Shown: piece after piece, positions 7,500 through 36,701 of the stretch
Layout of the letters: every line of letters starts with the position of its first letter
Numbering within the stretch: position 1 is the first letter of the stretch
Assembly (NCBI GenBank): GCA_903910705.1
Contig: CAIWAN010000085.1
Span: 1 to 56,345 of the forward strand
Reading direction: 5' to 3'
Source: an uncultured Candidatus Marinamargulisbacteria bacterium
GTDB lineage: Bacteria > Margulisbacteria > Riflemargulisbacteria > GWF2-35-9
Length of the DNA stretch: 56,345 nt
The notes under the pieces: generated by a model
Seen by the model: the letters and a program-made list of their open reading frames with translations, nothing else
Database searches by the model: none
What the model was told of the DNA's origin: nothing
Made by a program: the position numbers and the translations under genes

Positions 7500-9437
7500 A
7501 TGAATACCAAACAAGAAAGAGGCGTTGACGATATGAATAAGAAAATCATTGCAGATGTGGCTGATGCGCGAGAAGTAGTTGCAATAAAAACTTATAATGA
7601 AATTTGCTCAGCATACGATGTAGGGTTAACTGAAACCGCTAAGCTTATAATCGAAAAAAAACTCCCTAGCCTCGAAGAATCAGTAAAATATTTAATAGAT
7701 ATGTATCACGATAAGAATGTTAATCCAGAGAATTTTAGCCAACCTGAAATGAGTGAAATTCTTGTTAATGGTAAAGTCATTCTATCTCAAGAAAGGCGGC
7801 TTGAAATTATTGATTTATTCTCAAATATTCAAGACGTCTATTGTAATGACGAGCACAAGCTATCACAACATGAGAATATTGCTTTTCAAATCCTTTCTGT
7901 ATTAAAATTGTCTGCTTTTGCTGCAGCGAATGAAATATACGAGAGAATCAAAAGTGGAAGTATTGACCCTTGGAGTAAAATTAAGAAAATAATTAATTTT
8001 GCCGGAACCGCCAACCCTCTCCATTGGGCACATCTGGTGTCTATGCTTCAATCAGTGGCATATTCAATAGAGGCGAATAGAATTGATGTTGTTGCTCATA
8101 TATACGATTTTAGAAAAATTGACCCAGAAAACCCGAATGACATGGCAGCCTTTATTAATCGATACTATGTTGCTAAAGAAACGCTAAAGCCTTTTGGATC
8201 AATCTATGGGTTTAATGATCTGGATACAAAAATATATAATCGACTATGCGAATTAGCCGACCAAGGACTCGAGGTAATAAACTATGTCTTGGATCCTTCT
8301 GGTTATTTTGCAACTGATATTGTTGTAAAAGATCGAAACGGTAATACTTCTCAATTGCCTACGACAGAAGCGAATGAAGTTCTTCGCTATGCACCAGCTG
8401 ATGGTGAATCAAAGTTAGCTTATATGGTTGCTCAATTCGAAGCGGGTGTGCCAGCTTATTTAGCCCATTTTGCTGGAGATGATCACTATAATATATGTGA
8501 CACGCACAAGAACCTATTACGATTAATGATGGATTCGATTGGTAAAGTCGCTTTTATTGTTAAGCGTTCCAAAACGGAGCTAAATTCGGTCTTCAATTCC
8601 GGAATTCATCAGGTTGCAGCCCTCTTCAATGTTCGCAACAAGAAAAATATTGATAATATTAAATTGTTGAGACAGTTTGGCTATTTTGTTTTGGGTTTGG
8701 AAGAAGCCTTAATGGATCCAAAGAAAATAAAGAAAGCATATTCTGCGAATAACTCACACGGCCTTACCGTCCTTGAGAAACAACGAATTGAAGATCGTCG
8801 TGGTTTTATTGAAAGGAATATGGATTTATTAACTTTCAGATTGAAAGATAGTTATATTTTATCAATGCTTAACGATATCAATGAGGATGAAATAGCTGAA
8901 AGAGCTGTTTTAAGAAATGTCGATGATTCAACTGATATTTTGCAATTTACTATTAACGATTTTATCGATTCTTCAGGAGTAGATATTCAGGATGTGAAAG
9001 ATCAAATTATTAACATAAAGGGTGAACTTATTACTGCGTTAAATGTAAGTCGGGATGAATTCGATAAACTGATCCCTGTTAAAGCAAGGGAGATAATGCA
9101 GGTGATATTGGATATTGAAAATACGAGTAGCCATGAAATAGTCATCAAAGCAATATGTAACGCACTCGGAATAGAGCTTACTACTAATTTTGCCACCGTT
9201 CAGCATTCGTCAACATTTGGTCGAAATTTTTTCAAAGGCATTCCAACGGAACCATGGGCTGCTTTATTCATCCCTGTTTCAACGCTTAAGATTATATTTA
9301 ATGACTTACTGTCAAAATCTGGGGATGCTCCTTATGATCAATTAGCCAGAGAAACCTATGACATTAATAAAGGAATCAATGAGCAAGGTTCAGCCATTGC
9401 TAAAATTGCAGAAAAGCTTGGGATTCGTATAAACTAG
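7500..9437 (+). CDS. Large uncharacterised protein with a nucleotidylyltransferase (NadD/CoaD superfamily)-like motif
   Basis: NFAGTANPLHWAHLVSMLQSV resembles the G-x-x-N-P-x-H-x-x-H motif; AHFAGDDHYN may match the downstream GxDx motif. Rest not recognised. Start could be 7533. Confidence 0.6.
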   Translation: MNTKQERGVDDMNKKIIADVADAREVVAIKTYNEICSAYDVGLTETAKLIIEKKLPSLEESVKYLIDMYHDKNVNPENFSQPEMSEILVNGKVILSQERRLEIIDLFSNIQDVYCNDEHKLSQHENIAFQILSVLKLSAFAAANEIYERIKSGSIDPWSKIKKIINFAGTANPLHWAHLVSMLQSVAYSIEANRIDVVAHIYDFRKIDPENPNDMAAFINRYYVAKETLKPFGSIYGFNDLDTKIYNRLCELADQGLEVINYVLDPSGYFATDIVVKDRNGNTSQLPTTEANEVLRYAPADGESKLAYMVAQFEAGVPAYLAHFAGDDHYNICDTHKNLLRLMMDSIGKVAFIVKRSKTELNSVFNSGIHQVAALFNVRNKKNIDNIKLLRQFGYFVLGLEEALMDPKKIKKAYSANNSHGLTVLEKQRIEDRRGFIERNMDLLTFRLKDSYILSMLNDINEDEIAERAVLRNVDDSTDILQFTINDFIDSSGVDIQDVKDQIINIKGELITALNVSRDEFDKLIPVKAREIMQVILDIENTSSHEIVIKAICNALGIELTTNFATVQHSSTFGRNFFKGIPTEPWAALFIPVSTLKIIFNDLLSKSGDAPYDQLARETYDINKGINEQGSAIAKIAEKLGIRIN

Positions 9438-9535: not shown

Positions 9536-10891
9536 ATGAATAAGTGGCTCCGTTATGGTATTCTTGCGCTCAGTTTGATGACATTCCTCGTTTTTTCAGG
9601 TTGTTCGAAAGCAAGTAAAGCCGGTGCCTCTAGCAAAACCACCGAAGTGACCCTGTGGGTTATGCCCAATTCCTTAGAGCCCGTGAATGATCTCGAAAAG
9701 GTGCTTGAAGGGTTCTACAAAACACATCCCAATATTAAAATTAAAATTACATCCCTTGATTGGGGCGCAGCTTGGGTTCGCATCACAACGGCCGCGGTTT
9801 CGGGTGATGCGCCTGACATCGTTCAGCTTGGAACAACATGGGTTGCGGCTATTAGTTCGATGGGTGCGCTTAGTGATCTAACGGCTCAGGTCAACACGAT
9901 CGGTGGAGCGTCACATTTCCTTCCGTCCATCTGGAAAACCTCTAGCATTGAGGGCACAAACACTGTAACGGCCATTCCATGGTTTGTTGATGCTCGCGCT
10001 ATGTATTACCGTACCGATGTCTTTAATAAATTAGGCCTTACGAAAGCTGATCTTTCTACTTGGGCTGGATTCCAAGCCGCGCTTGAAAAGATCAAAAAGG
10101 CTGACCTGACGATCGATGGTAAGAAAGTGTCTCCTCTGGGTATCCCTGGTAAGAATGACTGGAATGTAGTTCACAATTTAGCACCTTGGATATGGAACGC
10201 AGGTGGGGATTTCCTCAGCAGTGATTACAAGAAGAGTTTCTTAAATACCTCTGAAACGGCTGAAGGCCTTGCTTATTATATTAGCCTCGTAACGAAAGGT
10301 TTTGTGACACGTGCTTGTTTAGAGAAAAATACCGCTCAAATTGAGAACGATTTTAATAATGGGACATTCGCGATTATATTTGATGGTTCCAATGAGCTTC
10401 GTGGTTTGACAACGTCACCAGAACAGGGGGGGGCCGCGGACACTTATGTAGCGAAGCGTTTTGATATCGCTCCTTATCCACAAGGCCCCAAGGGTAAATC
10501 GACGTTTGTCGGTGGCAGTAATCTCGCTATTTTCAAAGGATCGAAGAACAAAGAAGCCGCGTGGGAAGTCCTAAAGTATCTCACGAGCAAAGAAGCTCAG
10601 GTTGAATACTGCAAACGAAGTGGGTTTATGCCGGCAGCCGTCGAGGCCTTTGATGATCCTTACTTTACCGAAGACAGTCGTCGAGCCATTTACAAAGAAG
10701 CAGTTAAAGATGGCCGTGCGTACCCCAGCGTTCCTTCATGGGGTCTTATTGAACCTATCTTGGCTCGTCGTTTTGGGATCATGTGGGATTATGTTCTCGA
10801 AGCCAAGAATGGTTTCGGGGTTGTCGAGATCAAAAAGCTCCTTGCGCTTGCGGATAAAGAAGTTGTGTCAATTTTAGAAAAGAATAAGTAG
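9536..10891 (+). CDS. Sugar ABC transporter extracellular solute-binding lipoprotein
   Basis: Lipobox LVFSGC; SBP family 1 features (TEVTLWVMPNS, VVSGDAPDIVQLGTTW, FVGGSNLAIFKGSKNKEAAWEVLKYLTS). RBS GAGGTG upstream of ATG 9536. Confidence 0.92.
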   Translation: MNKWLRYGILALSLMTFLVFSGCSKASKAGASSKTTEVTLWVMPNSLEPVNDLEKVLEGFYKTHPNIKIKITSLDWGAAWVRITTAAVSGDAPDIVQLGTTWVAAISSMGALSDLTAQVNTIGGASHFLPSIWKTSSIEGTNTVTAIPWFVDARAMYYRTDVFNKLGLTKADLSTWAGFQAALEKIKKADLTIDGKKVSPLGIPGKNDWNVVHNLAPWIWNAGGDFLSSDYKKSFLNTSETAEGLAYYISLVTKGFVTRACLEKNTAQIENDFNNGTFAIIFDGSNELRGLTTSPEQGGAADTYVAKRFDIAPYPQGPKGKSTFVGGSNLAIFKGSKNKEAAWEVLKYLTSKEAQVEYCKRSGFMPAAVEAFDDPYFTEDSRRAIYKEAVKDGRAYPSVPSWGLIEPILARRFGIMWDYVLEAKNGFGVVEIKKLLALADKEVVSILEKNK

Positions 10892-10902: not shown

Positions 10903-11850
10903 ATGGCGACAATCGAGCAACGACCGCGTAATTATTATTACAAAAAGTATCGCATTGCGTATGCATTCATAGCCCCCACCTTGATAGGGATGATCATCAT
11001 GCATTTCATCCCTATTTTGCAGGGGATCTATATGTCCTTTTTGAGCCTGAATAATTATACGCTTAGTCAATATTTGGGTGCGCCAATGGTTTGGTTCCAA
11101 AATTACTATGATGTTTTGCTTAATCCCAGTAGTCCGATCCGTATCGGGTTATTGCAGTCCGTTCGAAATACCATTATTTACACGGTTCTCGTTACAACAG
11201 GGCAAATCGGCCTTGGAATGATCGTTGCGTTGATGTTGAATCTTGAGTTCCCCGGACGATCATTTGTCCGTACGCTCTTCTTATTCTCATGGATCGTTCC
11301 GACCTACGTAACCGGTATTTTGTGGGGCTTTATGTGGCAACAAAGCATCGGGATCATCAATATCATCTTAGTTGACTGGCTGCATCTGCTCCCAACGAAG
11401 CCTTTTTGGCTGGTCGGCCCTAATACGATTTGGGCTATCATTGTTCCGACTATTTGGCGTTATTGGCCGATGTCGATGATCATGTTGTTAGCCGGACTTC
11501 AGAATATTTCCGCCGAACTTTACGATGCGGTGAAAATTGATGGGGCTAATCGTTGGACAGCTTTCTGGAAGATCACATGGCCGCTTCTTCGTCCTGTCTG
11601 GATGATCCAAGTGTTGTTCGGTATGATCTACAATGTCTACTCGTTTAACATTGTCATCATGATGTTTGGTAATGGGGCAGGGTTCCCTGGTGAATGGGGC
11701 GACTTGATGATGACCAATATTTTTAGAAATTCCTTTATGCGATGGGATTTTGGTGTGGGCGCCGCGACCTCGGTCATTTTGTTGATGTTCATGATCATGG
11801 CTGTCAATATTTGGTTTAGATTCTATAAGAAAGCCGAGGAAAGCGTCTAA
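10903..11850 (+). CDS. Carbohydrate ABC transporter permease, MalF-like
   Basis: Multi-TM, EAA loop ELYDAVKIDGANRWTAFWKITWPLLRP. Confidence 0.92.
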   Translation: MATIEQRPRNYYYKKYRIAYAFIAPTLIGMIIMHFIPILQGIYMSFLSLNNYTLSQYLGAPMVWFQNYYDVLLNPSSPIRIGLLQSVRNTIIYTVLVTTGQIGLGMIVALMLNLEFPGRSFVRTLFLFSWIVPTYVTGILWGFMWQQSIGIINIILVDWLHLLPTKPFWLVGPNTIWAIIVPTIWRYWPMSMIMLLAGLQNISAELYDAVKIDGANRWTAFWKITWPLLRPVWMIQVLFGMIYNVYSFNIVIMMFGNGAGFPGEWGDLMMTNIFRNSFMRWDFGVGAATSVILLMFMIMAVNIWFRFYKKAEESV

Positions 11851-13667
11851 TGACTCCAAAACGCTGGTTAACCTATTATCAGGCAGAGCGAATAAAAAAA
11901 GTCGGCTTCATTGCTTTCATGTTGGTTCTCTTGGTGATCAATTGTTTTCCCATTTTCTGGATGGTTTTTAGCTCCTTAAAAAATAATAACGATATTCTTA
12001 GTGGTAATGTCGGGTTTAGTCGTGTCCAGAAAGATGTTTATTCTTTCTTTACGGACAAAAATGGCATTTATGTTTTCTCCATCGATGGGTCCATTTCAAA
12101 GTATAACCCTAACGATAAAAAGTTATTGGCTCATGTCACGGTCAAAGGGCAGGATGTTAATTATGCAAAAGACTCACACTATTTTTACCTAGCGAATTCT
12201 AATACAGGCATAGCCAAGATCGATCGAAATTCGTTAAAAGTTGTCCTTCAAACCCCTGCGCCGGTTAAGGGGTATGATACCAATAAATTTGGAAATGTGT
12301 CCGTTGAGGCTAGTGATAACAATCTTTACTACAGCGTCGAAATGGCGGGAATTCGTAATATCTATGTCTACGATAAGGACGCTCTTAAGTTAAAGCGCAT
12401 CATTCAGTTACCGATCAATGAAGACAGCATGATCCGATCGTTTAGCTTAAAGGCGGGGCAGCTTTACATCGGTACCGATACCGCCTTATTACAATTTGAC
12501 CTCGCTAAAGACAAGATCGTTCGCAAGGTCGATCTGGGTAAAGACTTTTATCCGTCCGGTATAGAGAAGGTTGTTTCTATCGAAGGGACTAAATTACAAC
12601 TTCTGACCCAATATAGTTTATTCGTTATCGATCTATCGGTCCAAAAGATCTCTCAAAAACTCAATTTTGGCATGAATCGTTTTGACGATGGATTCATCAA
12701 AGACGGTAATCTATGGATCGCTAATCCTGATGGGATCACCATTGTTGATATAAAGACCCAGAAAATATTGTCTCAGCAGGGTGGGCTTATTCGTGAATTA
12801 AAAGATGGCGTGAAGATTGATCCTCAAGCCGGTTACACCAGCCATGAGGTCAGTTCGGTGGCTTTGTATGGTAATGAACTATTGCTGGGCGCCTCTTACG
12901 GACGCGTTTCGTTCCTTCGTATTGGCGACAAGGCGCCTTATTACGATTTTCAGCTTCCCAAGGGTTACCGATTAGTGAAATGGTCTAATTATAGCGACCT
13001 CTGGAAGAATATCGACTTCGGACTGTATCTTCGAAACAGTATTATTATCAGTGGGTTTACGATGTTGTTTGCGATGATCTTAGCGACATTCGCTGCCTAT
13101 GCGTTGGTTCGATATAATTTTAAAGGAAATCGTGAGTTTGGTATCGCCATTCTATCGACGCAAATGATCCCTCAAATTATGTATCTGATCCCCTTGTTTA
13201 TCATGTTCAAATGGGTAACGGATGTGACGGGCATTCAGATCAAGGGAACGTTTACGGGGTTAGTGTTCATTTATACCGCTTTTTTTGTTCCGTTCTCTAT
13301 TTGGATCCTTCGAAGTTTTTTTGCAACCATTCCCGTTGAGCTTGAAGAGTCGGCCCGTATAGATGGGTGTAACGGATTTCAAGTATTCTGGAAAGTGAGT
13401 CTACCCTTAGCTATCCCAGGTATTATTGCTACGGGGATCTATGTTTTTCTGTCAGCATGGGATGAGTTAATGTTTGCGTGGGTGCTTACCAATGGACAAA
13501 CCATGACCATTCCTATCGGTATTCGTTTGTTTGTCGGTAATTTTCAGAATCGATATGATCTGATGATGGCAGCGGCTACGGTTGCCACTGTGCCGGTATT
13601 AGTGTTATTCTTTTTGTTGCAAAAGCACATTGTAAAGGGGTTAACAGCTGGGGCCGTGAAAGGATAG
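11850..13667 (+). CDS. Carbohydrate ABC transporter permease, MalG-like, with inserted beta-propeller-like domain
   Basis: N-terminal TM (VGFIAFMLVLLVINCFPIFWMVFSSLK) and C-terminal permease with EAA loop ELEESARIDGCNGFQVFWKVSLPLAIPG, separated by ~320 aa of propeller-like repeats (about 11997-12945). Confidence 0.9.
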   Translation: MTPKRWLTYYQAERIKKVGFIAFMLVLLVINCFPIFWMVFSSLKNNNDILSGNVGFSRVQKDVYSFFTDKNGIYVFSIDGSISKYNPNDKKLLAHVTVKGQDVNYAKDSHYFYLANSNTGIAKIDRNSLKVVLQTPAPVKGYDTNKFGNVSVEASDNNLYYSVEMAGIRNIYVYDKDALKLKRIIQLPINEDSMIRSFSLKAGQLYIGTDTALLQFDLAKDKIVRKVDLGKDFYPSGIEKVVSIEGTKLQLLTQYSLFVIDLSVQKISQKLNFGMNRFDDGFIKDGNLWIANPDGITIVDIKTQKILSQQGGLIRELKDGVKIDPQAGYTSHEVSSVALYGNELLLGASYGRVSFLRIGDKAPYYDFQLPKGYRLVKWSNYSDLWKNIDFGLYLRNSIIISGFTMLFAMILATFAAYALVRYNFKGNREFGIAILSTQMIPQIMYLIPLFIMFKWVTDVTGIQIKGTFTGLVFIYTAFFVPFSIWILRSFFATIPVELEESARIDGCNGFQVFWKVSLPLAIPGIIATGIYVFLSAWDELMFAWVLTNGQTMTIPIGIRLFVGNFQNRYDLMMAAATVATVPVLVLFFLLQKHIVKGLTAGAVKG

Positions 13668-13676: not shown

Positions 13677-16600
13677 TTGATTAAAATTAGACGTATTTTA
13701 ATTGCTGCAACAACGGCAATGGTTGTTATCCTTATTCTTCTCTCCTTGCATTCATGTTCAACCTTTTCTGAGACTAAAAAGCAAATCGAACAGTCTCGAA
13801 AAGAAACAATAAGTATCCTTCGTTCTTCTTGGAACCATTTCAAAAATCGTCAAGGATTTCAAGGTGACTGGTGGTCTGAAAAATTTAAGCACCCTAAAAT
13901 GATTATGGATGATGGTCGTCCTAACGCCTTTATGGATAGTGGGGACCAAGATCTAGATGGTGTCGCGGATATCAATTGGTCTGACCCTAAACAACCCTTT
14001 GAGTTAGCAGCTGTGAGTGAATCAGCGTCCTATGCCATGCTTCGAGCTATTTGGATGAAGGATAAGAAAACCTTCGACAAAATATGGCGATGGACAAAAG
14101 ACAATCTTCAGCATAGTCAGATCCAATGGGTCTATTATTTCAAAGATATAAAGAGTCTCGAGAATGGTTGGAAAAAAGTCGATGACCTAGGCATAGAGCG
14201 TGACCATTTATTTGCCTGGCGCTGGACTCCAACGATTGCCGAACGTGATCGAAAAGGGGTTAGAGAAGATGGGATTATGTATTACCGATGGCAGCAACCA
14301 ACAAAGGGGCATAATCCAAATGAACCTTGGCGTGATGGTTGGGATGCTGCATCTGATGCTGATCAAGATATTGCGTTAGCCTTGATATATGCGGATGCCT
14401 TGTGGGGAAGCAAGCCTAAAGATATTCATTTTGATTATGCTTCTAATGCCAAGCAAATATTGAAAGATATTTGGAAGAAAGAAACCTATATTAAAAATAA
14501 TTATCGCTATTTAGCAGGTGGGCCCGGTATGCAATCGATCGAACCTGGATACTTGTCCCCGTTTAGTTATCGTGTTTTCGACGATTTTGATCCTGACCAT
14601 AGTTGGTTAGACCTAGTCGATTCATCCTATCGAGTCTTTAATGATGCCTCTATTGCTAAACTTTCAAATATTACCTACAAAACGGGCCAAGTCCAGAGTG
14701 AGAATCCGTTCAAACATCAACGATGGCCACGAGCAAATTTGATGCCTGATTGGGTGGCGATCAACAAACAGGGCAAGGTGGTGGATGGAGTCGAACGTCA
14801 AGAACCCGAGTTCGGAACCGATGCCTTCAGGGCCTTGTGGCGTATCGCGGTTGATTATGAATGGAACAAAGATCCTCGCGCCGAGACCTATCTAAAGCCC
14901 AAAAGTCCCTACGGTCCTTTTGATTTTCTTCATTTCCGCATGAATGATCGTCGAGGGGACTGGAAGCTAACCAAGAGTTACAACGAATCCAAACGTTTAG
15001 CCTCTGTTTATGAGCATAATGGAGCCTATAATTTATACGAAACGAATTATGAGCCTTCGATTAAGGTCAAAAATCGAATTGAAGATGCGAATAATTCTCG
15101 AGCGAATGCGGCACAGTATGGCGTCTATTTGTCTTTTTTTTGGTCCTCCTATCTTGCCGATCCCAATCAAAAATCTGCATCGATGGTGCAAAAGTTAGTG
15201 AGACCACTGATCACACCTGAGTTAAATGGATTTAGTCAGCGCGCCTATGTCGTCCCTCCAGATAAATTGAAAACGGAGTCACCTCAGAATATTGCTAGGC
15301 AAACCCCTCTTGATAAACGAAATCCTCGAGCGGAGATAGGTTTGCCCTATAATGAAACGGATGGTTGGTTATGTGAAGATTCTGCTGGTACCTATTGGAC
15401 ATTGTTCGATCATTCCGAGTGGAATAGTCAAATGGACTATTTTAGTAATACGTGGGCTTGGTTCGGGCTTGCCCAGTTTGCGGGGGTCATTAAAAACTTT
15501 TATACAACCAAAAACTTAAAACCTATAGTGAAGGGTTTGGATGTCTATTTGGATCGAGATTGTGATTTTAAGGCACTGGATTCGATCAGCTCTGAAGCAT
15601 TTTATATTCTTGCTTGGGGAAAAGATCGCAATCCAAAACACCGTGATTATTTTTATATGAAGATCGACTCCACGCAAAAAGGAGCAACGCCCATTTATGT
15701 AAAAATGGTGGAGACGTCGCAGTCATCAGGTAAATTCAAAGGAACCGTGTTTGTGGGGCTTGATAGCAGTGATGTGGATGATCGTATTGCAGGAAGTGTC
15801 GGAAAATACGTGGGAATTCAAGTCGTTCATCAACCCAATTACAAGAAACGTTATCGTATTGGGCAGATTATGTTAAATAAAATAATTGAAGATTTTGAGG
15901 ATGGTTCGCCGTTTGACTCAAATCCTATGGCGTGGTGGACGGATGCATTAAAACCCAATTCAGGAAAACCCAATTTCACGGTTGGGAAAGATAAAGGTAT
16001 TTATATTTGGCGTGACGAGAAATGGCATATACGATTCTTAGGGATTAAGCCGGATGACGTTTTTTCGGGGATGATCTTGACGGATGGACTTGTTCAGTCA
16101 GCTCAGTCAGTTGGGGTTCATACGGCAGATCAATTCCAACCTTTAAAAAAGTCCATTAACTTTACTTATGTTGAGAATAAAACGATGTCAGGTATTGACT
16201 TTACGATCCAAGGGAAATACGTCATTTTTGATATAAAGTATAATGGGAATTATCAACCCGATGCTTTTATGATTGGGAGCCACGGGGATTCTGCCTTTGG
16301 AGCCCCCCTTATTTTAAAGAATCAAGGCGAAACGGGAACCTATAAACTAAGTATCAATAAACAAAAAGCGGTTAATTCTCGATATTCACTTCAAATTGAT
16401 AAGACCTATATCGGCAAACCCTATCCCTATTTGGGGGGCGTATTGATCAATCAAGACCACATGGATTGGACAAAATATGATGAGATGTCTTTTGATCTAT
16501 ATCTTGAGAAAGATGTCGGTCCGATCCGTTGTGATATTCAGGATGCCAAGGGGACCGTTGCCATTCTGAATGAATATAATCCTTGGAGTGAGCTTAAAGG

Positions 16601-19600
16601 CCCCGGATGGTATAAATGGCGCTCCAATACGCCATTAGGTTTGGCGGTGAATGCAAATTTAGTCCAACCTTTCTCCATTCGTGATCGAGGTTGGTGGAAA
16701 GGATGGTCTTTTGATGAGAGTCGAAATGTTGATCGAACAAAAGAAATTGACCTCTCAAACATCCGAAATGTTATGTTTTGTGTTCATGGAGGAGCCGAGG
16801 ATTCGTCTAAGATCCTGATTGATAATTTGACCTTGGATCGGATCAATTATAATTATGGGGTTCATCCTCCTTGGTCGATAAAAAAAATCAATCTTTACGG
16901 TGATGACAATTATTTAAACCGTCTCGACCCGAGATTGCCTATTCGTCAAGAAATGGTGTACGTAGAGATTGCCGGCATTGACCGATCCCCCTCTACGATA
17001 GATAAGTTTCGGCTCAAACTTGAAACGAGCGATCAATTTCCTGGCTGTCGTCCTATTGTGATCGATGTTGTGGAAACTTCAGAGCGCTCTGGAATTTATC
17101 GGGGGTACTTTAAGGTTGGTATTCAAAGTGACCCAGCCCATAACGTTGTTGGCGCAGCAGAAGGACAATCGATAACGATAAAGCCTTTGATGACAACCGT
17201 TACGAGCAAAACACTTAAAGTGGGTTCATTTAAGATCTCAACGGTCATTGATCGTTTTGATGATCTCTCTGCTGGGCAATATCCAGGGTCATGGTGGGTA
17301 GATACCCTTGATCCTGCGTCCGGAAGACCCATTTACCCCGCTGGATTTAAATTGGGCTACTTTATATGGAAAGAAGACGGTGTTTGGCGAATTCGATTTA
17401 GTTCCGATCAAAAGCAACATCGATTTTCGGGGGTATTGAAATCTGATGGTGATATAAGCCTCACGAATCAACTTAAACAAAAAGGGGATGAGATCTCTCA
17501 GGTTTCCCCGACCGAAATAAAGTTTAATACGGTTGAAACTTCAGCTGAAGATGGGTTTGATTTTAAAACATCTGCAAAATATGTCGAGTTTGATATCCTC
17601 ATCGATGGCATGAAATATCCCTACCTTGTTTATGTGGGTGCCAATGATTGGAATAAGGCCTATTCCCTTCCTTTTACGATAATGAATGTCGGGAAAACGA
17701 AGTCGTATGAACTCAATGTCGTGGACAAGCTTTCTGTGTCTCCGCCCAATTCAATGCAGATAAAAAAGAACTATTTTTCGAAACTCTTTCCCTATGTTGG
17801 AAAGTGGGGGCTGAGTGGAGAGTTAATGCGTTGGAATGAGCAAGACGAGTTTTCTATGTGGGTTTATCTTCGTGAGGATGTTGGAAATATTCGCGTGGAT
17901 ATTGAAGATGTAAATCGTCAATCGGCGGCTATTCATGAATATGATCCATGGGATCCTAAGCGTGGCGCTGGTTGGTATAAATGGACCTCCGCTCATCCTT
18001 CAGGTATTGCTCTCGCCGAGAGAAAAATTGATTTCAAGAACCTTAAAGATCGTCAATTCTGGACGGCGTATAATACCCATTTAGAACGAAATGAAGATGT
18101 GTCACGACGTATTAAGCTGGACAAGATCCTCAATATTGAGGTCTGTGTCGGATCAGGTGAGAAACGAGATGCTCTTATCAATGTCGATGATCTGTGTTTG
18201 CTTCGTCCCAATCGTCATATTGGAGGAACCAGTCCAAAACGAGTTGAGAAGGTTGTGCTTTTTAGTGACCCCCCATATAAGAAAAAGATTACCAAGGAGA
18301 TAAGGGATCAAGACGTTTACGTCGAATTGGTCGGCATTGATGGGGATCGAAATGCCCAAGATAATGTTTTTTTAGAGGTGAAGACCAATGATAAATCGGC
18401 CATTATCAATAAAATTACAGTTCCGCTAAAAGAAACGGGGGTTAGTACGGGGATCTATCGGGGTGTTTTTCATATTGGTTTAGATTCAGATGAGCAAGAC
18501 GATATTATCGCGGCCCCTTGGCATAGCCAAATCATCCTCTCATCTGTAACGGATATCCCTTTTGAACGAACGTTTGACGTGGGTTTGATCAATTTGGTGC
18601 ATCTTGTGGATGATTTTAAAGATGGCAAGATCGATGATAAGTTCCCCGTTTCGTGGTGGGTCGCTGGCGATACGCCAGAAGCCCGATCTTACAAGCTCTC
18701 AACCACAAAGGTCGGGACTCAGTATGCTATGAGAGTCAATAAAAGGGTTAATTGCGACCTTTACCCCTATTTTGGAGCATGGGGACTTCGAGGTGAAGTG
18801 GCTAACTGGCGTGAAATGGAAGATTTTATGATGACGGTCTATCTAGATAAAGATCCTGGAGAGATCCGTGTTGATATTCAAGATGATAAGGGGCATATGG
18901 CAGTCCTGAGTGGCTATAATCCTTGGGATGCGGCGAAAGGGGCTGGGTGGTATACCTATAATTCGAGTACAGGGATCGGTCGGGATTATAAGAATGGTTT
19001 GTTGGATCTGACCCAAATTCGAAAACGATCGTTTTGGATGGGCTGGGATCCGACTGTCCAGCAGTACGGCGATGTGACAAAGACCTTTGATTTCAGTCAT
19101 GTCCAAAATGTCCAATTTCTGGTTGATGCTGAAGGTCAAACGAATAAATCTTTTGTAGTGGGGCGCGTTTATGTGACGAATTGGAATTATCATTTGGGAA
19201 AATCAGCGCCGCGATCCATTTCTCGACTGGCTCTGTATTATGATCCGAATTATTCGATCGAGATCCCCAAAAAGGGCTCAATATTCTTTAAAGAAAATTT
19301 TGCCCAGATCATCGGCATTGATAAAGATCCCACACGGGTTGATGTTTTTCCTGCTGCTATAGCTATTTCAAATGGTCGGGGGCATTATCAAGTAAAGACT
19401 CAGTTTAAAGAGACCGATATCAACAGTGGCGTGTATCGCGCAGGATTTGATCTGAATGCTTTTTTTAATCCCTCTGATGGAACCACTCCAACAGCAGGCA
19501 ATACGGTCCAAGTCATCGTGACTGCGAAAGATCATTCGGGAACATATATCATCAATTCACTCCAGCCATTTGAGCTGAAACGTTTAAAACAACTTCAGCA

Positions 19601-19730
19601 TGAAAAGGGGCTAAATACCGCGGGTCGTAAACTTCATTGGCCATGGATCATTATTGTGGTCGCATTACTTTCCTCGATGACGTTCTATTTGTATGGAAAA
19701 AATGATGAGCAAGACGAGGAAGCCGCTTAA
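13677..19730 (+). CDS. Membrane-anchored GH8 glycoside hydrolase with repeated CBM/Ig-like modules (2017 aa)
   Basis: VSESASYAMLRAIWMKDKKTFDKIWRWTKDNL and ASDADQDIALALIYADALW fit the GH8 signature. Repeated modules from ~15882. C-terminal TM WPWIIIVVALLSSMTFYLYG. Confidence 0.88.
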   Translation: MIKIRRILIAATTAMVVILILLSLHSCSTFSETKKQIEQSRKETISILRSSWNHFKNRQGFQGDWWSEKFKHPKMIMDDGRPNAFMDSGDQDLDGVADINWSDPKQPFELAAVSESASYAMLRAIWMKDKKTFDKIWRWTKDNLQHSQIQWVYYFKDIKSLENGWKKVDDLGIERDHLFAWRWTPTIAERDRKGVREDGIMYYRWQQPTKGHNPNEPWRDGWDAASDADQDIALALIYADALWGSKPKDIHFDYASNAKQILKDIWKKETYIKNNYRYLAGGPGMQSIEPGYLSPFSYRVFDDFDPDHSWLDLVDSSYRVFNDASIAKLSNITYKTGQVQSENPFKHQRWPRANLMPDWVAINKQGKVVDGVERQEPEFGTDAFRALWRIAVDYEWNKDPRAETYLKPKSPYGPFDFLHFRMNDRRGDWKLTKSYNESKRLASVYEHNGAYNLYETNYEPSIKVKNRIEDANNSRANAAQYGVYLSFFWSSYLADPNQKSASMVQKLVRPLITPELNGFSQRAYVVPPDKLKTESPQNIARQTPLDKRNPRAEIGLPYNETDGWLCEDSAGTYWTLFDHSEWNSQMDYFSNTWAWFGLAQFAGVIKNFYTTKNLKPIVKGLDVYLDRDCDFKALDSISSEAFYILAWGKDRNPKHRDYFYMKIDSTQKGATPIYVKMVETSQSSGKFKGTVFVGLDSSDVDDRIAGSVGKYVGIQVVHQPNYKKRYRIGQIMLNKIIEDFEDGSPFDSNPMAWWTDALKPNSGKPNFTVGKDKGIYIWRDEKWHIRFLGIKPDDVFSGMILTDGLVQSAQSVGVHTADQFQPLKKSINFTYVENKTMSGIDFTIQGKYVIFDIKYNGNYQPDAFMIGSHGDSAFGAPLILKNQGETGTYKLSINKQKAVNSRYSLQIDKTYIGKPYPYLGGVLINQDHMDWTKYDEMSFDLYLEKDVGPIRCDIQDAKGTVAILNEYNPWSELKGPGWYKWRSNTPLGLAVNANLVQPFSIRDRGWWKGWSFDESRNVDRTKEIDLSNIRNVMFCVHGGAEDSSKILIDNLTLDRINYNYGVHPPWSIKKINLYGDDNYLNRLDPRLPIRQEMVYVEIAGIDRSPSTIDKFRLKLETSDQFPGCRPIVIDVVETSERSGIYRGYFKVGIQSDPAHNVVGAAEGQSITIKPLMTTVTSKTLKVGSFKISTVIDRFDDLSAGQYPGSWWVDTLDPASGRPIYPAGFKLGYFIWKEDGVWRIRFSSDQKQHRFSGVLKSDGDISLTNQLKQKGDEISQVSPTEIKFNTVETSAEDGFDFKTSAKYVEFDILIDGMKYPYLVYVGANDWNKAYSLPFTIMNVGKTKSYELNVVDKLSVSPPNSMQIKKNYFSKLFPYVGKWGLSGELMRWNEQDEFSMWVYLREDVGNIRVDIEDVNRQSAAIHEYDPWDPKRGAGWYKWTSAHPSGIALAERKIDFKNLKDRQFWTAYNTHLERNEDVSRRIKLDKILNIEVCVGSGEKRDALINVDDLCLLRPNRHIGGTSPKRVEKVVLFSDPPYKKKITKEIRDQDVYVELVGIDGDRNAQDNVFLEVKTNDKSAIINKITVPLKETGVSTGIYRGVFHIGLDSDEQDDIIAAPWHSQIILSSVTDIPFERTFDVGLINLVHLVDDFKDGKIDDKFPVSWWVAGDTPEARSYKLSTTKVGTQYAMRVNKRVNCDLYPYFGAWGLRGEVANWREMEDFMMTVYLDKDPGEIRVDIQDDKGHMAVLSGYNPWDAAKGAGWYTYNSSTGIGRDYKNGLLDLTQIRKRSFWMGWDPTVQQYGDVTKTFDFSHVQNVQFLVDAEGQTNKSFVVGRVYVTNWNYHLGKSAPRSISRLALYYDPNYSIEIPKKGSIFFKENFAQIIGIDKDPTRVDVFPAAIAISNGRGHYQVKTQFKETDINSGVYRAGFDLNAFFNPSDGTTPTAGNTVQVIVTAKDHSGTYIINSLQPFELKRLKQLQHEKGLNTAGRKLHWPWIIIVVALLSSMTFYLYGKNDEQDEEAA
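15882..19570 (+). repeat. Three tandem protein-level modules in the GH8 protein (about 15882-17239, 17240-18600, 18601-19570)
   Basis: Each begins IEDFEDG../VIDRFDDLSAG../LVDDFKDG.. with WW..D, shares PYLG/PYVGKWGLSGE/PYFGAWGLRGE, (I)RVDIQD..A.L..YNPWD..KGAGWY and ends in an Ig-like IGIDRxP...ETxxxSGIYRGxFxxG segment. Confidence 0.85.
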
Positions 19731-21339: not shown

Positions 21340-22680
21340 ATGGCAGAACTCGATCGAAAGATACCCCCACAAAATATTGAAGCTGAGCAGTCTGTCCTAG
21401 GCGCCATTCTCATCGATGCCGATGCGATGCATCGGGTGGTGTCCATGCTTCATCCCGAGTATTTTTATAAAGATGCCCATCGCCTTGTATTTGTGACTAT
21501 GCTTGAGTTAGCAGAGCGCGGTGAGCCGATCGATCTGGTCACCTTGACCGAAAAATTGCGAACAAAATCAGAGATCGAACGAGTAGGGGGCGCCTCCTAT
21601 TTAGCCGACCTTGCCGATTCCGTTAGCACCTCAGCGAATATCGAGTACTATGCCAAAATTGTTGAAGAGAAAGCGTTACTGCGTAAACTTATTTCGGCGG
21701 GGTCCGAGATCGTCGAAAGTGCATTCAGCGAGACTCAAGAAACGGAGCAGATCCTCGATCAAGCCGAACGTAAACTGTTTGAGATCACTGGAAGTCGTCA
21801 TCAAAAAGGGTTCACTCATATCAAAAATATTCTCGAAGATGTAATGGCTGACATCGAACGGATGTCGGATACAGAAAGTGGATTGTTGGGTATCTCGTCA
21901 GGCTATGTCGATTTAGATCGTTTTACCTCAGGGTTCCAGCCGTCAGACCTCATTATTGTTGCGGCCCGACCGAGCATGGGAAAAACAGCCTTATGCTTGA
22001 ACTTTGCGGCCGACATCGCTATTCGTCAAAAAAAGACAGTCGCCATATTTAGTTTAGAAATGTCCAAGGAGTCCTTGGTTCAACGTCTGCTTTGTGCCGA
22101 TTCGGAGGTCAATTCGAACCGGATCCGAACGGGCAACTTAAAAGATCAAGACCTCAAACGGATCACTCGCTCGCTCGGTCGGCTTGATGAGGCCAATATC
22201 TATATCGATGACACTCCCTCCATTTCGGCTATGGAGCTTCGGGCTAAAGCCAGACGAATTAAAATGGACAAAGGGCTCGATATTATCATCATCGATTATT
22301 TGCAGCTAATGACCGGATCGCGTTCGAAAGACGGGAACCGAAACCAAGAGATCTCCGAGATCAGTCGTTTATTGAAGTCCATTTCTCGTGAATTGAATGT
22401 TCCGCTTATCGCGTTGTCACAACTGAGTCGTGCCGTCGAACAACGCACGGAGAAGAAGCCCAAACTGAGTGACCTTCGGGAATCGGGTGAAATCGAGCAA
22501 ACCGCCGATTTGGTCATTTTCGTTCATCGAGAAGATTACTATGAAATGCAGAATGTCCCCACCAGTTTAACCGAACTCATTATCGCCAAACATCGAAATG
22601 GGCCTACAGGTATGGCCGAAGTGCTTTTCCTTAAGGAGTTTACGAAGTTTGTTCCCAAAGAGAACAAGCTCGATGCTTAG
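21340..22680 (+). CDS. dnaB: Replicative DNA helicase
   Basis: PPQNIEAEQSVLGAILID, RPSMGKTALCLNFA, IIIDYLQLMTG, ALSQLSRAVEQR. Confidence 0.97.
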   Translation: MAELDRKIPPQNIEAEQSVLGAILIDADAMHRVVSMLHPEYFYKDAHRLVFVTMLELAERGEPIDLVTLTEKLRTKSEIERVGGASYLADLADSVSTSANIEYYAKIVEEKALLRKLISAGSEIVESAFSETQETEQILDQAERKLFEITGSRHQKGFTHIKNILEDVMADIERMSDTESGLLGISSGYVDLDRFTSGFQPSDLIIVAARPSMGKTALCLNFAADIAIRQKKTVAIFSLEMSKESLVQRLLCADSEVNSNRIRTGNLKDQDLKRITRSLGRLDEANIYIDDTPSISAMELRAKARRIKMDKGLDIIIIDYLQLMTGSRSKDGNRNQEISEISRLLKSISRELNVPLIALSQLSRAVEQRTEKKPKLSDLRESGEIEQTADLVIFVHREDYYEMQNVPTSLTELIIAKHRNGPTGMAEVLFLKEFTKFVPKENKLDA

Positions 22681-24142
22681 AGCGCTTATCCTTCTCTTGG
22701 TTTTGTCGCTCTCATGGGCAGCCTATGATGTGACGTCAAATGCGTTTGATCTCGATATCTCCACCAATATCTTAGTTCTTTCGGGGGATGTCTTAATGGG
22801 GACGACTGGTTATGTATTTTCGGCGCCGATCTCTCGGATCGATATCGACAATCAGTGCATCTTTATCTCTGAATCCTTTAAGATAAAAAATAAGGTTCAA
22901 ACCATCAAAGGGACCTGCCTTGAAATTGACAATAAGGCATCCGTGTTAACCGCCAATGAGCTGAATATGAGTTTTCAAAAATACAAAGTGAGTGGACGTA
23001 ATGTCCGTGCAGGCAGCAGCTCGATCAGAATGAATAAGGTATTCATTACTTCTTGTAAAGGAACCCCCCCCGTCATTTTATTAGACAGTGATGAAGTCGT
23101 GCTCTATCCTCAATGGGGTTTTTTGGTCGCCTTTAATTCGATCTTAAACGTGAAGGGCATCCCCATCTTTTATTTCCCTGCTTATTTTATGGGGGATAGA
23201 CGTCAGGATCTTTTCGCGCAGAACCACTTGATCCCCGAGTTCGGGTCAAGCCCCCGAGAGGGTGGTTTTGTTAAAGAAGATGTTCCTTATTATATTAATG
23301 AATCAAATCATGGGGCTGTTCGTATTGCCTATATAGAGGCGCTTGGAATGCAAATCGGGGCGACTCACTATATGATGTTCCAAGATGGGCAGTCTCACGC
23401 ATCAGTTGCGGCCTATTACTCGCCAAAAAGATGGCAGGGGCATGTCAGCTATCGAACGGCTCTTTTTAATGACTTCCAACGCGAGCAGGATGCCTTAGGA
23501 TATTTGTTCAATTCGGGGATCGTATCCATTCGTCAGAGCAATGCTTATTTGACGGTTGGTTGGCACGAGAGTGAGCTGATCAATAATCAATATGTTACGC
23601 AAAAGCCTCGAATCGCGCTAGAAACCGTTCTGGGTATCACCGATCAAGATAATATTAACGTAAGTGTCGAACAATCCAATGTTTGCGAGAATCAGTTAAC
23701 GGACAATCAGAAAACAGCATGGACAGCCTCTTGGCAAAGCGCTTATCCCACCGGATGGGGCGTTCTCAGTCAACAGTTGAGTTGGGTCTCAAATGTTTAC
23801 GGTTCCACATTCCACCATCAGCGACTGGCTCAAAACTGGGCACTTACCCTTCCGTTCGAGGGCTGGTCTGTGGCAACGGACTATGAACATCTGTACGCCT
23901 ATTCGGGGGAATCTCCGTTCCTTTTCGACCAATATCAGGTTGATCCCTATGATAAGATCGGACTCGCTCTCAAGATTGAATTGGGGCTGTTTGATCTCGA
24001 AACGAAATGGCGACGTCGAGTTGGGCAGGACTATGACTATTCGCGTCGGTTCCAATTATCGTTGCCTTATGAAAAATGTCTTGAGTTTTCTGTGTTTTGG
24101 GAAGATGTGGATAAGGTCATGGGCGTTGAGGTTCGACTATGA
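22673..24142 (+). CDS. LptD/OstA-like outer-membrane protein
   Basis: Signal peptide from ATG 22673 (MLRALILLLVLSLSWA), OstA-like N-domain (NILVLSGDVLMGTTGYVFSAP), LptD-like FNSILNVKGIPIFYFPAYFMGD, then beta-rich C-terminus. Confidence 0.72.
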   Translation: MLRALILLLVLSLSWAAYDVTSNAFDLDISTNILVLSGDVLMGTTGYVFSAPISRIDIDNQCIFISESFKIKNKVQTIKGTCLEIDNKASVLTANELNMSFQKYKVSGRNVRAGSSSIRMNKVFITSCKGTPPVILLDSDEVVLYPQWGFLVAFNSILNVKGIPIFYFPAYFMGDRRQDLFAQNHLIPEFGSSPREGGFVKEDVPYYINESNHGAVRIAYIEALGMQIGATHYMMFQDGQSHASVAAYYSPKRWQGHVSYRTALFNDFQREQDALGYLFNSGIVSIRQSNAYLTVGWHESELINNQYVTQKPRIALETVLGITDQDNINVSVEQSNVCENQLTDNQKTAWTASWQSAYPTGWGVLSQQLSWVSNVYGSTFHHQRLAQNWALTLPFEGWSVATDYEHLYAYSGESPFLFDQYQVDPYDKIGLALKIELGLFDLETKWRRRVGQDYDYSRRFQLSLPYEKCLEFSVFWEDVDKVMGVEVRL

Positions 24143-29812: not shown

Positions 29813-32224
29813 TTACCCTAACGTGACCTCAACGAGATGTTCTTTTTTGTCATTAAAGAAGGGCGCGATGTTGCCAACGATCGGCTTTCCATCGACGTCC
29901 ATTGATTTAACACCTTGATTGACACCGTTTGGGTTCTTGACGTTGATGATGTAGGTCGCCCCACGAAACACGCGTTTGACCGAGAATCCGCTCCACTCTT
30001 TGGGAATACAGGGATTAACCGCAAGGCCTGTATAGGTAGGTTGAACGCCAAGAATGTGTTTGGTCGCTGCTTGATACGTCCAAGACGCTGTCCCCGAGAG
30101 CCAACTATTGCGACCGAGCCCGAACTGTGGATGCTCGTTGCCTAAAATGTTTTGAGGGTAAGAGTAGGGCTCACATTCGAAAATATCGATGATATCATTT
30201 TTGGTCGCTGGGTTGATCTGTTGATAATACTCAAACGCACGATTCCCGTGACCGAGTAAGGTTTCCGCGATCATGCACCAAGGGTTGGTGTGCAAGAACA
30301 CGCCGCCGTTTTCTTTGGCACCGGGTGGGTATGTCGTGATGCCGCCTTTGCGACAATCAAACCCGTTAAAGCCCGGCCAGCTGAGTTTGATACCATACTG
30401 GGTGTTGAGGTGTTTGTTGACAGAGTTCATGGCTTTCTCTGCTTTATCTTGTGGGGCAACCCCAGACAAGACGGCCCATGACTGGCTATTCACATAGATC
30501 TTGCCTTGCTCATTTTTAGCCGACCCTAACGGGGTGCCATCTTCTTCAAAGTAACGGACATACCAGTCGCCGTCCCACGCACTGGTGTTGACCGCGTCTT
30601 TCATCTCGTTGAAATGTAGGCGATAGACCTCGGCTTGTTGGGTGTCTCCGAGCGTATCCATCAATTCGATGACATCACTAAGGGCCTTCGCATATTGATT
30701 CGCAACAAAGAGGCTCTCGGCGTTACCTTTTAAATTAACGGTATCATTCCAGTCCGCAAATCCGAGCAAGGGGAGTCCATGACTGCCTTTATGGGTATGG
30801 GTGAATTCAAGTGCGCGTTTGAGATGGTCAAGAACCGTCCCTTTTTCGCGCTTATCGAGGTCGACATTCTTTTCATAGTAGGTAATCTCTTTTTTCAGGA
30901 GATCAAGGTCGCCGGTCTCTTTTAAATACGTGCAAACCGCAAGGACAATCCAAAGATGGTCATCGCCATAAAACTTGTGTCCATGCTCTTCACGAGAATC
31001 ACCTTCGTTGGCCTCAAGGGTCGATGCGAAGAATTGGTGCATGGCCGAACCGTCAGCTTTTTGGACGCTGAGGATCTTTTCCATCAGTTCAAGCCCTTCC
31101 GCTGGCATATGGGCCATCGTTCCCATCACATCTTGCGAACTATCTCGAAAGCCAAGTCCGCGGCCGCCAAATCCCAATTGGTAAAGGGAAAGATCTCTTG
31201 ACCAGTTTTTGGTGGTGTGACATTGACGAGGATTATGAATATTGACCATCGAGTTGAACGAGGCATCCGGTGTTTCGACTTGAAGGGTAGCCAGATACTC
31301 ATCCCAGAAAGCTTTCAGGGCATCAAACGCCTTGTCGACTTTTTGCGGGTCTCGGAAAGAGTTAATGGACTTCATGGCTTCATCGAGGGTGGCTTCTTGG
31401 CCAAGTTGCGTAATGATGCGCTTGGTCTCACCGGGGCGAAGCGTTCCAAGGGCATGGAGCAGAGCGCTAATATTATCCGCGCGACGTGCTTCATAGTTGG
31501 AGAGATGCGCCTTTTGGAGAGCTAACGGGTTTTTCCACGTGCCATATTCATTGTCACCCAAGAACTGTTTCCGGTCGGTTTCCCAAGAATCCACAGGGGT
31601 ATTCGAGGTGAAATAATTAACAGCGGTATCTCGCTTCATGAAGGCGTATTGCTTGTGAATGACCTGTCCATGTTTGTCGGTTATCGCATCAACCGTCATG
31701 GTTTGAGGCACCCAATCCGCGTTAGTGAATTGCTTTAACGCATCAAAGTGGCTGTATTCAACAACAGGGATAACGTCGAGGGTAACGGGCTCTTTGCTGA
31801 TATTGGTGATCTCGATATCGCGAATGACCACGTTGCTGTTATGGGGGACAAAAATCGTGACTTGGGTGCGGATGCCATAGAACTCAGAAATGATGCGTTG
31901 ATACGAAAGCCCAACATGGCATTCGTATTTGGTGTACTTGTCGAGGGTCGGGACGAAAAAGGGAGAGAACACTTTGTAGCCCGTTTTCTGATGAATACGG
32001 ATATAGAGTGTTTCGCCTTTAAAGTCAGAGCTAGGGAGCTGAGGAATATATTTGGTGATGCGATTGAGAGCAGGGTCGCCCTTGCAAATAATGGAGCCAC
32101 CCGTATGGTCGACGATCCCCCCAAACTTGAGGGTGCCGACATAGTTTACCCATTTGACCGGAGTCTTTGGGTCGGTAATGACATATTCACGGTTCGCATC
32201 ATCAAAATATCCATATTTTCCCAT
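29813..32224 (-). CDS. GH94-family glycoside phosphorylase (cellobiose/chitobiose phosphorylase-like)
   Basis: GKYGYFDDANREYVITDPKTPVKWVNYVG N-terminus; LSNYEARRADNISALLHALGTLRPGE; GFGGRGLGFRDSSQDVMG; GFADWNDTVNL. Confidence 0.85.
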   Translation of the reverse strand: MGKYGYFDDANREYVITDPKTPVKWVNYVGTLKFGGIVDHTGGSIICKGDPALNRITKYIPQLPSSDFKGETLYIRIHQKTGYKVFSPFFVPTLDKYTKYECHVGLSYQRIISEFYGIRTQVTIFVPHNSNVVIRDIEITNISKEPVTLDVIPVVEYSHFDALKQFTNADWVPQTMTVDAITDKHGQVIHKQYAFMKRDTAVNYFTSNTPVDSWETDRKQFLGDNEYGTWKNPLALQKAHLSNYEARRADNISALLHALGTLRPGETKRIITQLGQEATLDEAMKSINSFRDPQKVDKAFDALKAFWDEYLATLQVETPDASFNSMVNIHNPRQCHTTKNWSRDLSLYQLGFGGRGLGFRDSSQDVMGTMAHMPAEGLELMEKILSVQKADGSAMHQFFASTLEANEGDSREEHGHKFYGDDHLWIVLAVCTYLKETGDLDLLKKEITYYEKNVDLDKREKGTVLDHLKRALEFTHTHKGSHGLPLLGFADWNDTVNLKGNAESLFVANQYAKALSDVIELMDTLGDTQQAEVYRLHFNEMKDAVNTSAWDGDWYVRYFEEDGTPLGSAKNEQGKIYVNSQSWAVLSGVAPQDKAEKAMNSVNKHLNTQYGIKLSWPGFNGFDCRKGGITTYPPGAKENGGVFLHTNPWCMIAETLLGHGNRAFEYYQQINPATKNDIIDIFECEPYSYPQNILGNEHPQFGLGRNSWLSGTASWTYQAATKHILGVQPTYTGLAVNPCIPKEWSGFSVKRVFRGATYIINVKNPNGVNQGVKSMDVDGKPIVGNIAPFFNDKKEHLVEVTLG

Positions 32225-34980: not shown

Positions 34981-35083
34981 TTTTTAGTTTTCTCCGATTG
35001 GGTTTATTTTTACCATACCCAGTCTTCATGCAGGAAAACTGGGCAATCCGGTCTAGTTGGGGATTAATGCCAAAGGTAGTGTT
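34973..35083 (-). pseudogene. sbcB: Second fragment of the SbcB N-terminus between the helicase and rhuM
   Basis: Reverse strand NTTFGINPQLDRIAQFSCMKTGYG..., matching TFGINPQLDRIAQF.C in the other remnant; stop overlaps the rhuM start. Confidence 0.7.
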
Positions 35084-36696
35084 CACTCCCTCAACCCCAA
35101 CACTGGCTTATAAAACTGTCCAATCCACACTTTGGAAGTAGCAATTATTCCTTGTGCAATAAGCGAATCGATTTGTTCACAGACATCCTCCTGAGTATCG
35201 CCTCGCAAGGCTCCGTAACTCTTAAGTTGGTTGTGCTTATTCTCAAAGATTTTTTTGTTCTTACTACCCATTAAGATACCAGAAATATAGAGTTTTCCGT
35301 AAGGAATGCTCAGCTCATTGATACAGGCAACAACAGACGTAGCATATTTATCGATTGTTGGTTTGCCACTATCCAGATTATCTTCATGAATGATTTTGTC
35401 TTTGACTAGCTCCCAAAAAACATCCAGTTCTTTGTTGATGATAATCTCATGTTGGGCAATAGCATTGAGCATAAAGATACCCTCATACGTTCTGCATCGA
35501 CTGAGGGCGACATAGAGTTGCCCAGGTGCAAAGGCTGAAACGGCCGTATCTAAAAGGACTCGGTCATAGGTCTGACCTTGGCTTTTGTGAATGGTAATTG
35601 CCCAGCCAAGCCGAACGGGCAACTGCTTAAATTCACCAGTGACGTCCTCTTTAATGGCCTCGTCGACCACTTCATATTTGAGTCGCTGCCACGTTTGATA
35701 GGCCACTTGGAGTTCGGCATCCTTGCAAAGAACAACGAGGTGTTTCGCTTCGATTGCTTTAATAATTCCGATATCCCCATTCACCCATTGCCTCGCTTCA
35801 TCGTTCTTAATAAAAAGGACTTGAGCACCCACTTTTAACCTCAATACTTTTTCGGTGGGATAGTCTCCCTCTGGGAAGTCGCCACTGATCTCAGCGGTAA
35901 ACTCATGTTCCGAGGAAGGGAGCTTGGCGAGACGCTCCTCATTGTGTTTGGTTGCCAGTTTATTGGTGGTGGTTAGCGTGATATACGGTTCGGGAATGGA
36001 TGCTTTTGAGGCGACAATCCGCTTATCGAGCACCTCGCCTATCTTGTCACCATACTCATAGACACGAATGTTGTTCAGCGACTCAACCCATGCTTCGTCC
36101 TTTTGGCGATAAACCGTTGAGAGCTCAATGACGTTAAGTTGATCTGACTCTGTTATTTCCTTAAACACCCGTGAGTTAAAAAAATAGTGCCCTTTGTAGT
36201 TGTTTTGCTTAAAAACGATTTCTTCTTCTCGTCTCACCACCGGAGGAAGTTGATAAATATCCCCAACCATCATGACTTTGACGCCACCAAACGCAACATC
36301 AGACCGGTTTCTGTTTATGCGTAAGGACCTATCAATCCCATCGAGAATGTCTGCGCGAACCATCGAGATTTCATCAATGATGAGCAGGTCGATCTTTTTA
36401 TAAACCCCTGTTTTCTTTGCTTTTGAAATATGGGTAACATCAATAAATCGTGGCGGAAATTTGAAGAAGGAATGTATCGTCTGTCCACCGACATTGATAG
36501 CAGCGATCCCCGTTGGCGCGACCACAACCCATTTGTTTTTGTAATGTCGCTTCAGGTAGGCGATAAACGTCGATTTTCCTGTGCCGGCTTTACCATGGAT
36601 AATGATCGACTTGTTGGATTGCTCAAGGATTTTAACAATCTTTTCAAACGAAGTGGTGTCAATATTTGTCTGAACCACAGGCTTTTGTTCAAACAT
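35083..36696 (-). CDS. PIF1/RecD-like SF1 DNA helicase
   Basis: Walker A HGKAGTGKSTFIAYL, Walker B LLIDEISMV, AITIHKSQGQTYDRVLLD, LYVALSRCRTYEGIFML. Confidence 0.9.
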   Translation of the reverse strand: MFEQKPVVQTNIDTTSFEKIVKILEQSNKSIIIHGKAGTGKSTFIAYLKRHYKNKWVVVAPTGIAAINVGGQTIHSFFKFPPRFIDVTHISKAKKTGVYKKIDLLIIDEISMVRADILDGIDRSLRINRNRSDVAFGGVKVMMVGDIYQLPPVVRREEEIVFKQNNYKGHYFFNSRVFKEITESDQLNVIELSTVYRQKDEAWVESLNNIRVYEYGDKIGEVLDKRIVASKASIPEPYITLTTTNKLATKHNEERLAKLPSSEHEFTAEISGDFPEGDYPTEKVLRLKVGAQVLFIKNDEARQWVNGDIGIIKAIEAKHLVVLCKDAELQVAYQTWQRLKYEVVDEAIKEDVTGEFKQLPVRLGWAITIHKSQGQTYDRVLLDTAVSAFAPGQLYVALSRCRTYEGIFMLNAIAQHEIIINKELDVFWELVKDKIIHEDNLDSGKPTIDKYATSVVACINELSIPYGKLYISGILMGSKNKKIFENKHNQLKSYGALRGDTQEDVCEQIDSLIAQGIIATSKVWIGQFYKPVLGLRE

Positions 36697-36701
36697 TAGG
36701 G

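Follow-up and report, generated by a model that had tools for sequence, protein, structure and literature searches.

An uncultured Candidatus Marinamargulisbacteria bacterium, from the little-known phylum Margulisbacteria, encodes a 605-aa protein that serves a CUT1 sugar importer as its MalG-type subunit and that carries, between its first and second transmembrane helices (TM1 and TM2), an insert modelled as a complete seven-bladed beta-propeller. Importer permeases are mostly seen as plain helix bundles, the P2 domain of E. coli MalF being the textbook exception, and in ordinary MalG/SugB proteins the TM1-TM2 loop comprises tens of residues and holds no inserted domain. The gene lies on contig CAIWAN010000085.1 of assembly GCA_903910705.1, a genome of 2.2 Mb that is 97.7% complete, and all coordinates are those of the window, the whole stretch of 56,345 nt that was analysed. 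The permease and its main parts are the following.

11850..13667, + strand: MalG-type permease with an inserted beta-propeller, 605 aa (open reading frame, Pfam, PDB, AlphaFold2)
11901..11972, + strand: TM1, residues about 18-41 (hydropathy; helix 9-42 in the AlphaFold2 model)
12027..12959, + strand: predicted seven-bladed beta-propeller, residues about 60-370, in the extracytoplasmic TM1-TM2 loop (AlphaFold2, Foldseek, HTCS profile match, block missing in insert-less orthologs)
12975..13664, + strand: MalG permease core, residues 376-605 (PDB 7cad_B, E 1e-35)
13329..13421, + strand: EAA loop, residues 494-524, IPVELEESARIDGCNGFQVFWKVSLPLAIPG, of which 499-524 read EESARIDGCNGFQVFWKVSLPLAIPG (sequence; kept in 17 of 17 homologs)

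The preliminary description had read this frame as running uninterrupted from a canonical first transmembrane helix, through a long stretch of short repeated strands, to the remaining MalG helices with an intact EAA loop, and each of these elements was found: a single open frame without internal stops, TM1 where hydropathy and the model place it, and a complete core. Upstream, the MalF-like gene shares one base of its stop codon with the start codon of this frame. A frame error joining two separate genes, which had been named as a possible objection, and an assembly chimera were both rejected because the fusion is repeated across many genomes, insert and permease sharing an open frame in 37 of the 95 genomes searched (29 genera). 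Residues 376-605 match MalG/SugB (BPD_transp_1, E 7e-18; 7cad_B, E 1e-35; 2r6g_G, E 8e-25) and align end to end with the core of the MalG and SugB chains in the PDB, including the EAA loop, which is the ATPase-facing motif, and the C-terminal GLTAGAVKG. PF00528 scores 65.5 bits against a curated cut-off of 26.4 and is the sole family above cut-off in a Pfam scan of the whole protein. The CUT1 MalG trait of a short TM1-TM2 loop is absent, a propeller of ~310 residues standing there; this trait is usual for the family and not defining, and the protein is filed as a MalG variant. The TM1-TM2 loop is assigned to the outside of the cytoplasmic membrane from the topology known for MalG and from the positive charge of the N-terminal tail.

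The fold of the insert emerges with its relatives. Searches with the single sequence give propeller hints below threshold only, such as Reg_prop at 15.8 bits against a Pfam cut-off of 20.4, whereas a profile built from 17 full-length relatives reaches E-values down to 1e-27 against PDB propellers of Bacteroides hybrid sensor kinases (3ott, 4a2l, 3v9f). Among 24 relatives scanned singly, the PorZ N-propeller was found in 13, PQQ_2 in 7 and Reg_prop in 4, besides the permease, and all non-permease families were propellers or domains of that repeat type. AlphaFold2, run with 24 sequences, predicts 28 strands in seven groups of four over residues 63-368, with a pLDDT mostly of 85-95; the membrane part is modelled at about 30-75, too low to fix how the propeller is set over the pore. 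The top 50 Foldseek matches are propeller proteins (BamB, BtuG, WD40 and designed propellers). Taken together, the PDB profile matches, the scan of relatives, AlphaFold2 and Foldseek rule out a chance likeness to propeller strands. The earlier suspicion of a propeller-like domain between TM1 and TM2 was thus borne out by both structure prediction and profile search, and of the segment first proposed, residues 50-370, the fold stood while the boundary moved to about 60-370 (12027-12959). The predicted blades are listed below.

12036..12140, + strand: blade 1, residues 63-97, with invariant D79-G80 (AlphaFold2 and conservation)
12156..12254, + strand: blade 2, residues 103-135 (AlphaFold2)
12297..12407, + strand: blade 3, residues 150-186, preceded by a loop with conserved D143/K146 (AlphaFold2 and conservation)
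12432..12533, + strand: blade 4, residues 195-228, missing in half-size forms (AlphaFold2 and profile alignment)
12567..12662, + strand: blade 5, residues 240-271, missing in half-size forms (AlphaFold2 and profile alignment)
12687..12779, + strand: blade 6, residues 280-310, missing in half-size forms (AlphaFold2 and profile alignment)
12855..12953, + strand: blade 7, residues 336-368, with G351 invariant and R352 conserved (AlphaFold2 and conservation)

That the best PDB propeller matches belong to hybrid two-component sensors suggests one role for the domain, namely that it binds or senses oligosaccharide as a transceptor and reports the substrate to the importer or to a regulator; the Foldseek match to BtuG, whose propeller structure was determined with cobalamin bound, points the same way. 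We consider this role improbable. The likeness to sensor propellers may only mirror fold-level motifs, and the loops are poor in what a sugar platform usually needs: the most conserved loop positions (D79, G80, D143, K146, P235, G351 and similar) are polar or glycine, no conserved aromatic residue was found in the propeller loops, and the 322 residues of the window insert include a single tryptophan, although this is a mild argument. A regulator of WYL type is encoded at 24139, but the operon yielded no identifiable sensor kinase, and histidine kinase and response-regulator domains, sought in the window protein, are absent, the permease domain alone following the propeller. Loop conservation gives the linker-bearing face no clear advantage over the other (difference 0.18 bits, permutation p 0.05), which counts against the dock proposed below.

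Within a genus the propeller diverges far more quickly than the permease, at 84% amino acid identity compared to 98% for the core, a pace that would suit a weak or changing partner no less than a dedicated dock. Its dN/dS between two congeneric species is about 0.04, a rough figure with dS saturated, and indicates strong purifying selection on the full propeller.

The question of whether the insertion is a conserved, clade-specific architecture can be answered from the survey of homologs. A full-length profile finds the full form in ~30 of 75 Margulisbacteria genomes, with the same insert boundaries across the phylum; a half form in six, perhaps eight, which lacks profile positions 185-327, corresponding to blades 4-6; and an insert-less form in ten, which lacks positions 57-367, the whole propeller. 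Within the 95-genome sample, the insert segment was found in none of the 20 genomes from outside Margulisbacteria. Outside the phylum, a diverged insert occupies the same site in Fibrobacteria (L044, L046, L064) and in Fibrobacter intestinalis (L088:7663-9831), whose 740-aa frame holds a larger insert of about 470 residues; the Margulisbacteria insert profile finds these Fibrobacterota inserts at E-values of 4e-30 to 7e-11, compared with 0.9 for the best of 150 shuffled controls. In the phylum of L044, as sampled, long MalG frames of this sort were seen in about 8 of 81 genomes. A sequence on a 2.9-kb contig labelled Clostridia (L030) groups with Margulisbacteria and may be misbinned, and a plasmid search with the insert gave zero matches. 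The long MalG frames read in distant phyla mostly owe their length to open frame or a gene lying upstream or to added N-terminal helices, and among the frames read outside Margulisbacteria and Fibrobacterota only two are of a comparable kind, L145 with an insert and L139 with an N-terminal helical extension. The latter (L139:96-1844, - strand) is a 583-aa MalG homolog with an added N-terminal transmembrane helix and a helical, coiled-coil-like region before the core.

The history of the insert was traced on a tree built from the permease core alone, with the insert excluded. The half and insert-less forms of Margulisbacteria make up one clade (support 100/96) nested among the full forms, and forcing all insert-less forms, from Margulisbacteria and other phyla, into one clade is rejected (AU p 0.0015). 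In the half form blades 4-6 are deleted exactly, and in the insert-less relative the propeller is excised exactly, leaving an ordinary MalG of 289 aa. Given this nesting and the exact three-blade deletion, the series reads as a loss from seven to four to no blades in one subclade, the tree alone being compatible with gain as well as loss. The model of the half form contains 16 strands in four groups, at a moderate-to-low confidence that leaves a closed ring of four blades uncertain, and this form might represent a small propeller of a new sort. Because it has been removed stepwise and exactly in one subclade, the propeller is a modular, dispensable add-on, and the same stepwise loss indicates that it is unnecessary for transport as such. 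The subclade without a propeller retains the same type of binding protein, which counts against a docking role.

Clean loss of this kind, together with the fast evolution of the domain relative to the core, would also suit a nearly neutral passenger, an old self-folding insertion that is tolerated and is being lost. This is very unlikely, since dN/dS is low (see above), about 30 genomes keep the domain with certain positions invariant, and Fibrobacterota possess it in diverged form.

The operon runs from a sugar-binding lipoprotein through MalF and MalG to a giant GH8 protein, and the genome encodes one MalK-type ATPase (OB_MalK). The relevant neighbors are as follows.

9536..10891, + strand: MalE-like substrate-binding protein (SBP), an extracellular sugar-binding lipoprotein (PF01547, E 3e-39; lipobox FSGC after the ATG at 9536; the open frame is listed from the TTG at 9485)
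10903..11850, + strand: MalF/UgpA-like permease of ordinary size, 315 aa (PF00528, E 6.5e-16; UgpA/MalF models)
13677..19730, + strand: giant GH8 glycosidase, secreted and membrane-anchored, 2017 aa, with C-terminal CBM-like repeats (PF01270, E 7e-20; N- and C-terminal hydrophobic segments)
29813..32224, - strand: GH94 cellobiose/cellodextrin-type phosphorylase (PF17167, E 2e-130)

Genes for GH8, GH26, GH26-CBM9, CBM11-like, GH48-like and GH94 proteins lie near MalFG in related loci, and the recurrence of GH8, GH26, CBM and GH94 neighbors suggests that the cargo is probably beta-glucan or cello-oligosaccharides (PMC3079729). The GH94 phosphorylase is the probable intracellular user of the imported sugar.

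Such neighbors also suggest that the propeller could be a scaffold that keeps at the importer the secreted glycanases or CBM proteins, GH8 in the window and GH26-CBM9 or CBM11-like proteins in other loci, and channels their products to it. Outside the Termititenax clade, almost every Margulisbacteria locus has a GH8, GH26 or CBM gene adjoining MalFG, with GH8 beside the propeller-MalG in L024, L025, L026 and L032; in the window the GH8 gene starts 9 bp after malG and its product has a hydrophobic segment resembling an anchor at its C-terminus; and the top Foldseek matches include BamB, a propeller that acts as a scaffold. The linkage with enzymes, however, does not need the propeller, because the insert-less forms (L052-L063) retain GH26/CBM neighbors, and conversely the seven loci of the Termititenax clade and the Fibrobacteria loci have the propeller without such neighbors. 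Scaffolding is therefore doubtful, and we would give it little weight. A narrower association of the propeller with GH8 rather than GH26 neighbors was also discarded, the instances not being independent on the tree and L028, L030, L057 and L093 breaking the pattern.

The same loci offer several further observations. In WOR-1/Saganbacteria loci (L036, L031, L033, L048, L054 and others) the SBP gene lies apart from malF-malG, and its place upstream of malF, or a nearby position, is often taken by a GH8 or GH26 gene. The propeller as a substitute for the SBP, considered for those loci without an adjoining SBP, was ruled out by an ortholog elsewhere in every such genome checked; overall, an SBP ortholog was present in 15 of 15 genomes checked. 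WOR-1 also has separate CBM11-like genes (about 225-250 aa) beside MalG, whose DNFEDG/DDFESG start resembles the repeats of the window GH8. Certain MalF-like frames, L006 (435 aa) and L016/L059 (about 450 aa), contain an extra 120-130 residues in mid-gene with hydrophobic segments, for example after GIINIILYDYLKIH, a stretch that the window MalF does not have. Elsewhere in the window, 7500-9437 encodes a 645-aa protein with a nucleotidyltransferase-like motif, NFAGTANPLHWAHL, and no Pfam match at E 0.001; 22598-24142, a listed frame overlapping the end of dnaB, encodes 514 aa that match LptD weakly (E 4e-6), which hints at an outer membrane; and 35083-41579 (- strand) holds a Type ISP restriction-modification enzyme (1625 aa) beside a PIF1/RecD-like helicase with an RQC domain (537 aa).

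The most economical explanation, and the most likely one in our analysis against its rivals of sensing or capture and glycanase scaffolding, would be a docking platform. The role offered in the preliminary description, a docking or sensing module, thus stays plausible. In E. coli, residues 70-72 of MalG contact MalE (PMC3150292), and their putative counterpart can be placed in the window protein.

12984..12992, + strand: segment 379-381, putative counterpart of E. coli MalG 70-72 (residue 392 aligned with MalG 83; ungapped extrapolation)

This segment lies some ten residues beyond the last propeller strand. The propeller is joined at either end to helices that would stand at the outer mouth of the importer, and the domain would lie only a few residues away from the counterpart of the MalE-contacting stretch of E. 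coli MalG; from these two points we infer that the propeller sits beside the landing site of the SBP. It may serve there as a fixed dock that positions the sugar-loaded SBP, and perhaps anchored glycanases as well, over the pore, much as the P2 domain of MalF does but on the other subunit. The dock would raise efficiency or add a partner while remaining outside the transport cycle, the latter because one subclade shed the propeller in steps. For the full proposal, a docking platform beside the entrance of the binding protein that is no part of the transport cycle, in an importer of beta-glucan or cello-oligosaccharides, we see roughly even chances. It is a more tentative idea, and one we hold with some doubt, that this is an importer with a covalently fused propeller receptor at its mouth, capturing or holding the SBP or polysaccharide fragments, for which nature supplies a deletion series of seven, four and zero blades.

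The Margulisbacteria propeller, its diverged Fibrobacterota version and the apparently unrelated insertion of Thermotogales suggest that the TM1-TM2 loop of MalG has served repeatedly as a place where accessory domains are grafted. The role of the propeller is testable by swapping the natural forms, since the seven-, four- and no-blade series occurs in close relatives and the architecture is present in the cultured Fibrobacter intestinalis. A literature search for a MalG or ABC importer with a beta-propeller, with most subscription journals outside its coverage, returned no relevant paper; we thus found no published version of a MalG with a propeller, while a large insertion at the site is already known from Thermotogales. 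Of the objections named in the preliminary description, the only one with some substance is an earlier account of the architecture: the site has its precedent (PMC2246101), with an insertion of an apparently different kind.

Comparison with known systems places the protein among several relatives. MalG and SugB (2r6g_G, 7cad_B) share with it the whole permease core, the EAA loop and the C-terminal tail, but lack a domain in the TM1-TM2 loop. The propellers of Bacteroides hybrid two-component sensors (3ott, 4a2l, 3v9f; Reg_prop) are similar in the sequence profile of their blades (E 1e-27), whereas the window protein has one seven-bladed propeller, in a transporter subunit and without a kinase. 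Thermotogales MalG1/MalG2 carry, at the same site between TM1 and TM2, a hydrophilic region of ~500 aa that is clade-specific and of unknown function, for which the 2008 study found no relatives and named no fold (Noll et al. 2008, PMC2246101). An 868-aa MalG from another phylum (L145:612-3215, + strand), with a TM1-TM2 insert of ~600 residues that looks helical and charged and not like a propeller, is probably of this type; its insert is unmatched by the Margulisbacteria insert profile and has no Pfam propeller, so that the Thermotogales region, which is larger than the window insert, is apparently unrelated to it, as judged on this presumed representative. The P2 loop of E. coli MalF, described in PMC2246101, moves around and near MalE (PMC3150292, PMC8134467) and, in MalFGK2, is likewise a large extracytoplasmic domain on a CUT1 permease; however, P2 lies between TM3 and TM4 of MalF, measures about 180 residues and is no propeller, whereas in the window the domain stands between TM1 and TM2 of MalG, and the 315-aa MalF partner, unlike that of E. 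coli, has no loop of P2 size.
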